NCBI RefSeq assembly: GCF_003977755.1
Contig: NZ_RQWN01000003.1
Coordinates: 124,001-188,000 of the forward strand
Source: Haloterrigena salifodinae
GTDB lineage: Archaea > Halobacteriota > Halobacteria > Halobacteriales > Natrialbaceae
Reading direction: 5' to 3'
Length of the DNA stretch: 64,000 nt
The notes beneath the pieces were generated by a model. That model was not told the DNA's origin. It worked only from the letters and a program-made list of their open reading frames with translations, and searched no databases. The position numbers were made by a program, and so were the translations under genes. Shown in pieces: positions 13,409 through 17,475 of the stretch (position 1 is its first letter; each line of letters starts with the position of its first letter).

Positions 13409-13649
13409 GCCTTAATACTATCTTCGGGAAAGGAAGAGTTGCGTTGGAAGCCCGGATGGTGTAGTGGCCCATCATACGACCCTGTCACGGTCGTGACGCG
13501 GGTTCAAATCCCGCTCCGGGCGTCTTCTTCCGCGAACAACAAGTCGACGAGCACTGCGTAGCGTGTGCTCGTCAATAATGAGCGGCAAGCCGGAAATCAG
13601 GGATTCGAACTACGGGACAAGCGAACCGACGTGAGCGAAGTTCAGGTGG
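13409..13649 (+). repeat. Tandem duplicated tRNA-Asp segment, copy 1
   Basis: About 240 bp, running from a CTTAATAC promoter-like box through the tRNA-Asp gene to a tail containing GACGAGCAC and AACCGACGTGAGCGA. The same order of blocks recurs at 13799-14036, about 390 bp downstream. The tRNA is identical and the flanks are slightly diverged, which indicates a local duplication rather than two independent genes. Confidence 0.8.
13450..13522 (+). tRNA. trnD: tRNA-Asp (GTC), copy 1
   Basis: 73 nt folding as a cloverleaf: acceptor GCCCGGA/TCCGGGC, anticodon stem CGACC/GGTCG around loop CTGTCAC with anticodon GTC, T-arm GCGGGTTCAAATCCCGC, discriminator G as expected for aspartate. CCA is not encoded. 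A CTTAATAC box lies about 35 nt upstream. Confidence 0.97.
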
Positions 13650-13798: not shown

Positions 13799-14036
13799 CC
13801 CTTAATACCGTCACCGGGAAAGGAAGAGTTGCGTTGGAAGCCCGGATGGTGTAGTGGCCCATCATACGACCCTGTCACGGTCGTGACGCGGGTTCAAATC
13901 CCGCTCCGGGCGTCTTCTTCCGAAAACAACAATCGACGAGCACCGGGTAGCGTATGCTCGTCAATAATGAGCGGCAAGACGGAAACCAGGAATTCGAACT
14001 CCGGAACGAGTGAACCGACGTGAGCGAGGTCAGGTG
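13799..14036 (+). repeat. Tandem duplicated tRNA-Asp segment, copy 2
   Basis: Second copy of the segment described for 13409-13649, with the same promoter-like box (CTTAATACCG), GGGAAAGGAAGAGTTGCG leader, tRNA and downstream tail. It ends exactly where a third, 22-nt tRNA 3' fragment begins, suggesting that a third unit once followed. Confidence 0.8.
13840..13912 (+). tRNA. trnD: tRNA-Asp (GTC), copy 2
   Basis: Identical in sequence to the copy at 13450-13522, with the same upstream promoter-like box and leader. Two identical copies raise the gene dosage of the only aspartate isoacceptor, which fits the Asp-rich halophilic proteome (inference). Confidence 0.97.
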
Positions 14037-14646: not shown

Positions 14647-14829
14647 CTTGCGGAACCCGAAATCGATCATCCGAACGTCAAACGAGCCGAGAAATATCAA
14701 TTCGAGCGGTGACTCCCCTGACAGCCGCCGCGGAACTGTCCGTCGGCACTGTCGCTCGAGAACCTAATTATTTAGTGGCCACTTGAACATCCCTCAGTGG
14801 ACTGCAGCGACTTGCGCTACTGGTAACCA

Positions 14830-16932
14830 ATGACGAAACCGATCACCGTTCTCATCGTCGACAACGAACCGGGGTTCGCCGATCTGGCCGGCGAGATGCT
14901 CGAGCGCGAACGCGATGCGATCGTCGCCGAAGCGGCGACGAACGCGACGGCGGCGCTGGAGATCCTCGAGCAGCGAGAGATCGATTGCATCGTCAGCGAT
15001 TACGAGATGCCCCGGATGACGGGGTTGGAGCTGTTGGAGCGAGTTCGCGAAGACGATCCGGATCTGCCGTTCATTCTGTTTACGGGGCGGGGCTCCGAGG
15101 AGATCGCCAGCGAGGCGATCGCGGCCGGCGTGACCCAGTACCTCCAGAAGGAGTCCGGTAAGGAGCAGTACGCGCTGTTGGCGAACCAGATCACGAACGC
15201 GGTCTCCCAGTATCGGACCGAGACGGAACTGCGGGAGAGCGAGCGACGGTACGAGCGGACGCTAACGACGTTACACGAGACGACACGGGATCTGATGCGT
15301 GCGGGCACGAAACGGGAGATCTACCAGTCGGCGGTCGATACGGCGGGTGAGATCCTCGACGTGCCCGTCGCCGCGGCGTACACGTTCGAGCCGACGGACG
15401 GGATCTTAGCGCACGCGGCGTCGATGCGAGAGTCGCGGGAACTCGTCGATCCAGAGATGCAGTTCGAGCAGGGTGAGGGCCATGTCTGGGAGGTGTTCTC
15501 GGAGGGAGAGAGCGCCTACTACGAGGACGTGACACGGGACGCTGACACCAAGACGCTGAGCCGGAGCGAGCTGATCGTCCCGCTCGGGACCCACGGCGTG
15601 TTGGTCGCGGGAACCGAGGACGTCGACGGTTTCGACGAGACGATGACGGAACTGCTGCACATTCTGGCCGCCAACACCGAGGCGGCGCTCGATCGGGCCG
15701 AACGCGAGCAACTGCTCCGGGACCACGATCGGACGCTCACTCAGCAAAACGAGGAGCTGACGCGGCTCAACCACACCAACGAGATCGTTCGCGAGATCAA
15801 TCACGGCGTGGCGCAGGCCTCGACGCGAACCGAAATCGAGACGACGGTGTGCGAGCGGTTGGCCGACACCGAACGATACTGCTTTGCCTGGATCGCCTCG
15901 AGCGACGACGAGCCGTCCGAGCCGACGGCCTGGGCCGGCATCGACGCGGCCTTTATCGACCGAATTCGCGACGACGGCGAGCGCGCGCCGGAGCACTCGC
16001 TGGTCGCGGAGACCCTCGAAACCGGCCGCGTGCAGATCGTCCGAAATGTCCTCGAGACCGACGGCTGGGATCGGCGCCGAAAGGAGGCGTTGACCTACGG
16101 CTATCAGACGATACTGGCGGTCCCGCTGACCGATACCGAACGCCAGTACGGCGTCTTGCTCGTCCACGTGGCAGGGGTCGACTCGGTCGGCGACAGCGAA
16201 CTGGAGGTGCTCGGCGAACTCGGCGAGACGATCGGCCACGCGATTCGATCGGTCGAGCGGACGCGAGCCATGCTGACGGACAGCCGACTCGAACTCGAAC
16301 TCGCCGTTTACGATTCGCGACTGCTCTTGAACCGATTCACCGAGCACGTCGAGGGGGCGGTGACCATCGAGGGGATTATCGAGCGAGACGACGACGTCGT
16401 CATGTTTGTCAGCACGCCTGAGACCGCCGATATCACGCCGCTCGAGGAATGGGCGTCGCTCGAGACGATCTCGATCGTCTCGGAAGGCGACGACGAGATC
16501 CTCTTCGAGGTGACGGTCACCTCGTCGCCGATCTTGGAGATCCTACGGACCTTCGACGTCCAGTTGCGGACCGCGACCGCACAGAACGGGTCGACGACGC
16601 TCGTCCTCGAGGTCCCCCAGCGGGTCGAAACCCGATCGCTGGTCGAAGCGATCAGGGAGGGATATCCCGAGACGGAACTCGAGGCGCGACGCGAGACGAC
16701 GAGCACGCGGTCCGCCCGACAGCTCGACACGCACCTTGAGGAGCGGCTCACCGACAAGCAGTTCGAGGCGTTACAGGCGGCCCACTACAGCGGGTTCTTC
16801 GAGTGGCCGCGAGAGAGCACCGGCGAGGATCTCGCCGACGCGCTCGACGTCACGCCGCCAACGTACCATTACCACCTGCGAGCGGCCGAACGAAAGCTCG
16901 TCACGCTAGTGTTCGACGGCCAGTCTAACTAA
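14830..16932 (+). CDS. Response-regulator/GAF/bacterio-opsin-activator HTH regulator
   Basis: 700 residues. Order: receiver domain (about 1-120; phospho-acceptor Asp57 in VSDYEMP), GAF domain (about 160-290), second GAF (about 315-460), a bacterio-opsin-activator region (about 480-630) and a C-terminal HTH_10 domain (LTDKQFEALQAAHYSGFFEW, then a DLADALDVTPPTYHYHLRAAE helix-turn-helix). It is a typical haloarchaeal Bat-like sensor-transcription factor taking input through phosphorylation and small molecules. No histidine kinase gene is adjacent. A TATA-like AATTATTTAG lies about 60 nt upstream (14765-14774). The 3' flank contains operator-like palindromes described separately. Confidence 0.9.
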   Translation: MTKPITVLIVDNEPGFADLAGEMLERERDAIVAEAATNATAALEILEQREIDCIVSDYEMPRMTGLELLERVREDDPDLPFILFTGRGSEEIASEAIAAGVTQYLQKESGKEQYALLANQITNAVSQYRTETELRESERRYERTLTTLHETTRDLMRAGTKREIYQSAVDTAGEILDVPVAAAYTFEPTDGILAHAASMRESRELVDPEMQFEQGEGHVWEVFSEGESAYYEDVTRDADTKTLSRSELIVPLGTHGVLVAGTEDVDGFDETMTELLHILAANTEAALDRAEREQLLRDHDRTLTQQNEELTRLNHTNEIVREINHGVAQASTRTEIETTVCERLADTERYCFAWIASSDDEPSEPTAWAGIDAAFIDRIRDDGERAPEHSLVAETLETGRVQIVRNVLETDGWDRRRKEALTYGYQTILAVPLTDTERQYGVLLVHVAGVDSVGDSELEVLGELGETIGHAIRSVERTRAMLTDSRLELELAVYDSRLLLNRFTEHVEGAVTIEGIIERDDDVVMFVSTPETADITPLEEWASLETISIVSEGDDEILFEVTVTSSPILEILRTFDVQLRTATAQNGSTTLVLEVPQRVETRSLVEAIREGYPETELEARRETTSTRSARQLDTHLEERLTDKQFEALQAAHYSGFFEWPRESTGEDLADALDVTPPTYHYHLRAAERKLVTLVFDGQSN

Positions 16933-16954
16933 TTAGTACCCTATTCTGGAGGAC

Positions 16955-17061
16955 TCTAATAGATTAGAAGCCATACTTACCACCTCCCGGTACATACGGG
17001 TAAATGGCGATCTGCGATAGTCTATCGCCACCCCCAATCCCCCCACCCCCACTTTCCCCCC
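16955..17061 (+). repeat. Palindrome-TATA-hairpin-C-tract unit, copy 1
   Basis: A perfect palindrome TCTAATAGATTAGA (16955-16968) is followed by a TATA-like CCATACTTAC (16971-16980). About 27 nt later, 17004-17061 begins ATGGCGATCTGCGATAG, containing the stem GCGATA/TATCGC, then a C-rich tract with four runs of five or six C. The minus strand therefore has the pattern of a G-quadruplex. From 17004 an open frame reads MAICDSLSPPPIPPPP. A second, similar unit starts at 17338. I cannot tell whether it encodes a small RNA or a proline-rich micro-protein, or is a structural repeat. Confidence 0.6.
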
Positions 17062-17337
17062 TGACCTACCATCCGAGAGCCATCAGCGCAGTTCGCTGTC
17101 GGCGCTCGACCAGCGACATCGTCGATCAGTCGCCGTTGTACGCATCGATTGACTGTTCTCGTGAGCCCCGCGTTCGAATTGAGTCCAGTCGAGCGCGGAT
17201 AGTTCTCGACGCGAGGCGGACGCCGGCCGCCGTGAGCGAGAGAAATCAATCGCTACGCGCCTCGGTAGTCATCGATCGCGTCGGACTCGAGCACCGCTCC
17301 GACGGATGCATCTCGGCGACCCGCCTCCGGAATTTAA

Positions 17338-17475
17338 GTAATTAGATGAAACCACCATTATGGTTCTAATTACATAGTAAGTATATTTAATCCCCCGCGG
17401 CGCGTACGAATTGATGGCGATCTGCGATACTCTATCGCCACCCCCAATCCCCCATCCCCCCCCCACTTTTCCCCT
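17338..17475 (+). repeat. Palindrome-TATA-hairpin-C-tract unit, copy 2
   Basis: A long interrupted palindrome, GTAATTAGA (17338-17346) against TCTAATTAC (17365-17373) with inner arms AACCA/TGGTT, precedes an AT-rich box (GTATATTTAATC, 17382-17393). About 27 nt later, 17414-17475 repeats the ATGGCGATCTGCGATA hairpin and C-tract almost exactly (one base differs in the hairpin loop). The frame reads MAICDTLSPPPIP. The two palindromes share the ATTAGA/TCTAAT half-site, so a common regulator is plausible (inference). Confidence 0.6.

Follow-up and report, generated by a model that had tools for sequence, protein, structure and literature searches.

Some bacterial response regulators work through small RNAs that carry a repeated short motif, as exemplified by GacA with RsmY and RsmZ (and by CsrB). 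CsrB and RsmZ titrate the protein CsrA, and the repeated motif is GGA. To our knowledge, the regulator or mode of action is known for few archaeal small RNAs. The GacAS system acts exclusively via RsmY and RsmZ (PMC4132741), and CsrA has been reported in only one archaeon (PMC6104027). In the LisRK-LhrC system of Listeria, the small RNA is multicopy, every copy depends on the response regulator, and the RNAs share repeated C-rich, single-stranded motifs (PMC4132741). Among haloarchaea, Haloferax rancRNA s194 is an intergenic, non-coding RNA of 97 nt with its own TATA box 28 nt 5' and with stretches of 4 to 6 C in its reads (PMC6104027), while sRNA132 and s479, also from Haloferax, are trans-acting small RNAs for which mRNA pairing has been predicted or shown (PMC6560208, PMC8155600). 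Lastly, Bat of Halobacterium, a protein with a GAF domain and a C-terminal helix-turn-helix (HTH), has been tied to an upstream activator sequence (UAS) at bop (PMC1447603).

We analyzed a window of 64,000 nt from Haloterrigena salifodinae (contig NZ_RQWN01000003.1, positions 124,001 to 188,000), in which a preliminary description had noted two paralogous units directly following a Bat-like regulator gene. Both units are where it placed them, as tandem copies at 16925-17061 and 17334-17475, some 410 bp apart (Table 1). Each is built to one plan: a pair of CTAANNNNTTAG palindromes spaced about 31 bp apart, then a TATA box, then a hairpin of 7 bp, and finally a tail of C-runs that lacks G and ends in CTTT(T)C in both copies. 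Their adjacency to a Bat-like regulator was borne out by Pfam, which finds a receiver-GAF-BAT-HTH_10 gene directly 5'; we take such a Bat-like regulator to be a light/oxygen-type gene switch. Two pcm-type genes (Pfam) lie 3' of the units in the window, on the opposite strand. On the evidence of sequence, we consider it probable that each unit is the gene of a small non-coding RNA under the control of the adjacent regulator. Farther 5', two tRNA-Asp (GTC) genes precede the regulator gene (13450-13522 and 13840-13912, ~390 bp apart), and a duplicated tRNA pair is also found near the locus in two relatives (L045 and L052).

Table 1. Predicted features of the two units and the neighboring regulator gene, in window coordinates
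Feature	Positions	Strand	Basis or remark
Palindrome CTAATTATTTAG, putative autoregulatory operator, 5' of regulator gene	14764..14775	.	genome scan
Bat-like response regulator, 700 aa, receiver (Asp57)-GAF-BAT-HTH_10	14830..16932	+	Pfam
Copy 1 operator site 1, CTAACTAATTAG	16925..16936	.	overlaps regulator stop codon
Copy 1 operator site 2, CTAATAGATTAG	16956..16967	.	4 bp 5' of TATA box
Copy 1 TATA-like box, CATACTTAC	16972..16980	+	promoter alignment of homologs
Copy 1 5' hairpin, TGGCGAT...ATCGCCA	17005..17030	+	folding and conservation
Copy 1 G-free C-run tail, end CTTTCCCCCC	17031..17061	+	
Copy 2 operator site 1, TTAAGTAATTAG	17334..17345	.	
Copy 2 operator site 2, CTAATTACATAG	17366..17377	.	
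Copy 2 TATA box, TATATTTAA	17382..17390	+	
Copy 2 5' hairpin, TGGCGAT...ATCGCCA	17415..17440	+	folding and conservation
Copy 2 G-free C-run tail, end CTTTTCCCCT	17441..17475	+	

The distribution of the unit is well beyond chance. There are exactly two occurrences of the 16-mer ATGGCGATCTGCGATA in the window, at 17004 and 17414, and a fuller pattern has two matches in the whole 4.96-Mb genome (none for a reversed-pattern control). When up to three mismatches were allowed, the pattern was found in 46 of 125 Natrialbaceae genomes, again with a control of 0, and a covariance model built on 48 homologs extended the matches to 105 of the 125, mostly with one or two copies each. The unit is thus kept family-wide and is clearly neither unique to this locus nor without conservation in relatives. 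In the rest of the class outside Natrialbaceae, there were weak matches or unrelated stems; among 391 genomes drawn across the class, only 13 non-Natrialbaceae genomes matched, all weakly (E values of 2e-6 to 0.01). Exact-pattern scans of named-genome contigs and of viral contigs found the unit in one named genome, that of Haloterrigena salina, whose DNA is 94.4% identical to the window across 6.1 kb around the locus, and in no virus. No Rfam 15 family reached its gathering score across the RNA, in the window or in relatives, and a search of the open-access literature found this RNA described nowhere, an absence not thereby proven.

Several other matches deserve mention. Those at four loci (L108, L113, L179, and L180) were rejected as spurious hits to the RNA model or to the C-run/G-run patterns; they are G-run inverted repeats of type GAAACGAAGGGGTGGGGG, which we take to resemble haloarchaeal replication-origin boxes. 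A genus of another family (g52; L114, L115, and L192-L195) has look-alikes of the same layout, possibly but not necessarily homologous with the Natrialbaceae RNA, with a perfect stem GGCACC/GGTGCC followed by ACCCCC. One of them (L114) has an HTH_10 gene ~0.7 kb 5' and an isocitrate-lyase-type gene 3'.

The hairpin is nearly uniform within the family. In 48 distinct homologs, six of the seven stem pairs are invariant, and the seventh is U-G or U-A in all but one. RNAalifold, run on 57 homologs, picked the helix TGGCGAT/ATCGCCA unprompted, and single folds concur, so the stem is longer than the GCGATA/TATCGC that had been read from the two copies. An alternative inner stem, GCGAT/ATCGC, seems less likely: RNAalifold favors the outer stem, and the inner-stem C is A in many homologs. 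Because all stem positions are near-invariant, there is no covariation within the family to argue for or against the helix, and support for it therefore comes from conservation, from folding, and from the differing stems of the remote look-alikes. Remoter relatives, in genera g2 and g10, keep GGCG/CGCC with different loops.

The tail that follows is the other hallmark of the RNA, whose core measures ~57-62 nt. Across 65 copies, it runs for a median of 28 nt without G, compared with 11 nt at the 99.9th percentile of control runs. It consists mostly of three or four C-runs outside the predicted stem, and TTT stands close to its end in 56 of the 65 copies. The C-runs thus form a repeated short motif in predicted single-stranded RNA, as in small RNAs of the LhrC/RsmZ type. 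Run lengths and spacers vary among homologs, with CCAATCC, CATACTCC, CTTTCC, or unbroken C. G-runs on the opposite strand, which had suggested a G-quadruplex pattern, are real, in that the two tails account, as complements, for 4 of about two dozen distinct GGGGG-N1-3-GGGGG places genome-wide, and the pattern may be no more than a consequence of the C-runs. Past the tail, at a distance of 8-24 nt, a GAG[AC]G motif shows mild enrichment (the best 5-mer was present in 22 of 58, against a maximum of 19 in shuffles); in copy 1 it lies at 17070-17086, and it possibly belongs to a longer RNA. Elsewhere in the same genome (C6:199096-199147; L185, L187), an intergenic CCGCCACCCCCCACCCCCACC stretch faces a G-run stretch 30 bp further on.

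The preliminary description had also proposed that the units might encode leaderless, proline-rich micro-proteins (MAICD-SLSPPPIP). Such frames do exist in both window copies, each open and with its ATG at the position expected of a leaderless transcript; as protein, they are not conserved in the homologs. In many of these, reading from the ATG yields MAI-stop; codon 4 is a stop in 18 of 65 (TGA in 16, TAA in 2). Also, the first codon is ATG in 40, GTG in 12, CTG in 7, and TTG in 6 of the 65, and tail lengths fall into all three frames, so that the reading frame is lost across the tail. Codon-4 stops, CTG first codons, and frame-shifting tails together therefore indicate that the conserved product is not a protein, and we regard a micro-protein as almost certainly the wrong reading.

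Upstream of the hairpin, the putative promoter is equally constrained. With positions numbered from the base preceding TGGCGA, A at -31, TTA at -27 to -25, and TA at -9/-8 are invariant in 65 homologs. The center of the TATA box lies ~28 nt 5' of the hairpin, as expected of a haloarchaeal small RNA with its own promoter. Published haloarchaeal promoter elements comprise the TATA box, the BRE, and a WW -10 element (PMC4983044). Given these known elements, the RNA start site should fall within ~2 bases of the hairpin. In 63 of 65 copies, palindrome 2 begins at -48; in 60 of 65, palindrome 1 is found 31 or 32 bp 5' of it. A palindrome had been noted earlier in each copy, and both are present; the one in copy 1, however, is the second of a pair.

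Within its own genome, the tandem palindrome pair occurs only at this locus. A genome-wide scan for a palindrome plus TATA box found, besides both copies, a site before the regulator gene (14764-14775), and a perfect palindrome stands 5' of the regulator gene at 20 of 28 loci, compared with 0.16% in shuffles. The rigid palindromes of the RNA promoter are shared with the regulator gene's own upstream region and are candidate binding sites. A scan of the genome for a wider regulon (single operator plus TATA box) gave 23 further matches, compared with 67 in the reversed control.

Linkage between the RNA and the regulator extends across the family. At an ortholog threshold of E ≤ 1e-100, the regulator is present in 99 of 125 genomes, all 99 of which also have the RNA; another 20 lack both, and 6 have the RNA only (Fisher p 3e-18, with genomes treated as independent of ancestry). 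The phospho-acceptor Asp57 is retained by 25 of 25 orthologs, whose HTH_10 end, PTYHYHLRAAERKL, hardly varies. In two genomes in which the regulator was not found, the RNA has decayed (G058) or has kept its hairpin and lost its palindromes (G084). Family-wide conservation, the unit's own promoter, its invariant hairpin, rigid operators, and this co-occurrence strongly support, at the level of sequence, a regulated small RNA, which the preliminary description had offered as one possibility. The same data support the promoter-hairpin-tail unit, its non-coding nature, and the geometry and sharing of the operators.

The order regulator, RNA (same strand), and pcm (opposite strand) recurs in nearly all neighborhoods read. 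This arrangement invites two other explanations. An antisense RNA to the 3' end of pcm would fit the convergence seen in most genomes, including the window, where the unit ends ~45 nt from the pcm stop codon. Nevertheless, pcm is ~1.6 kb off in G048 and G049, where the RNA is still there, and no pcm was found inside the 7-kb loci of genus g2, where the RNA persists; this explanation is thus very improbable. Alternatively, the units might be DNA or cis elements with a functionless RNA product, such as a terminator, a G-quadruplex or roadblock, or a control site for the regulator gene or pcm. Their place between convergent genes and a template strand rich in G-runs would suit such a role, although it sits poorly with a unit that has its own TATA box and operators and whose stem bases are invariant while the flanking DNA has diverged. 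Moreover, the pcm strand bears nothing terminator-like, and copies are duplicated not only in tandem but also, in genus g2 (L091, L093, L095, and L096), at a second, unlinked place without pcm, where both palindromes are kept. We therefore consider a cis element improbable, if less so than an antisense RNA. The unlinked g2 copy adjoins a gene for a 4HBT thioesterase and a further HTH_10 gene.

Returning to the regulated small RNA, we propose that a signal would reach the Bat-like regulator via its receiver or GAF domain, and that the regulator would bind the paired CTAANNNNTTAG palindromes just 5' of the TATA box, most likely activating transcription of the RNA. Activation, rather than repression, is suggested because the site adjoins the TATA box and because of the known role of Bat. 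Binding to the same palindrome at its own gene would give self-control. This regulator is the most likely binder. Counting against the link are the 6 genomes with the RNA in which no ortholog was detected, and the promoter could instead be read by another HTH_10 protein. Once presumably transcribed, the RNA may have its 5' end shielded by the stem, while the C-run tail and short U-run, predicted to be single-stranded, would act in trans. The C-runs would then either seed pairing with G-rich mRNA stretches or bind and titrate a C-binding protein. Since the C-richness of the tail survives free changes in run length and spacer, we favor several short sites over a single long complement. For the whole chain of RNA, regulator control, and trans action via C-runs, our confidence falls a little short of even.

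The second of these modes, in which the tail is a sponge for a C-binding RNA-binding protein rather than a partner of mRNAs, merits separate consideration. A C-rich, G-free tail with freely changing runs and spacers fits multivalent short sites better, and G-runs with which two C-runs could pair are uncommon in the organism's own genome; a target search via such G-run pairs gave ~20 places there, with no pattern. However, no C-binding partner was found, and seeds of 5-8 nt to G-rich mRNA stretches would evolve alike. We judge the sponge unlikely, while giving it greater weight than any of the other alternatives.

If the small RNA acts as proposed, its significance lies in the circuit to which it would belong. 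From sequence alone, one response regulator can be linked to an RNA family that most genomes of a large haloarchaeal family retain, and this putative circuit offers a precise operator along with losses and duplications that have occurred naturally. It also supplies a likely binding site, by prediction, for one HTH_10 regulator; HTH_10 proteins are a large archaeal group for which we know of few mapped binding sites. Questions raised by the circuit include which signal the receiver perceives, what role the RNA has, and whether any archaeal protein or mRNA network is addressed via C-runs. By analogy, and tentatively, since we doubt it somewhat more than we credit it, the locus might be an archaeal counterpart of GacA-RsmZ or LisR-LhrC, in which a dedicated, autoregulated Bat-type response regulator has a C-run RNA as its main output and that RNA reprograms many mRNAs or titrates an archaeal C-binding protein.

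Comparison with known systems places this RNA among them without equating it to any. Likeness of the regulator to Bat is at the level of domains, namely the GAF domain and the C-terminal HTH; the present protein also has a receiver domain, and its putative targets are its own gene and the RNA. Although sRNA132 has a pyrimidine-rich linker, it is found only in Haloferax, and s479 arises by processing of a precursor that contains a CRISPR-like repeat (PMC6560208, PMC8155600); neither combines a 5' hairpin, a C-run tail, and a cognate regulator. Compared by description rather than by sequence, s194 differs in being restricted to Haloferax species and in having no paired regulator or operators described (PMC6104027). 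RsmY and RsmZ carry GGA repeats for CsrA, whereas the present RNA carries C-runs. LhrC is bacterial, and its UCCC motif, for which pairing with Shine-Dalgarno regions has been proposed, is located in loops and in a linker (PMC4132741), whereas the haloarchaeal RNA has longer C-runs in a tail, an archaeal promoter, an adjoining regulator gene, and a shared operator. LisR-LhrC and GacA-RsmZ are nevertheless the nearest working analogies, and s194 is the nearest haloarchaeal RNA.
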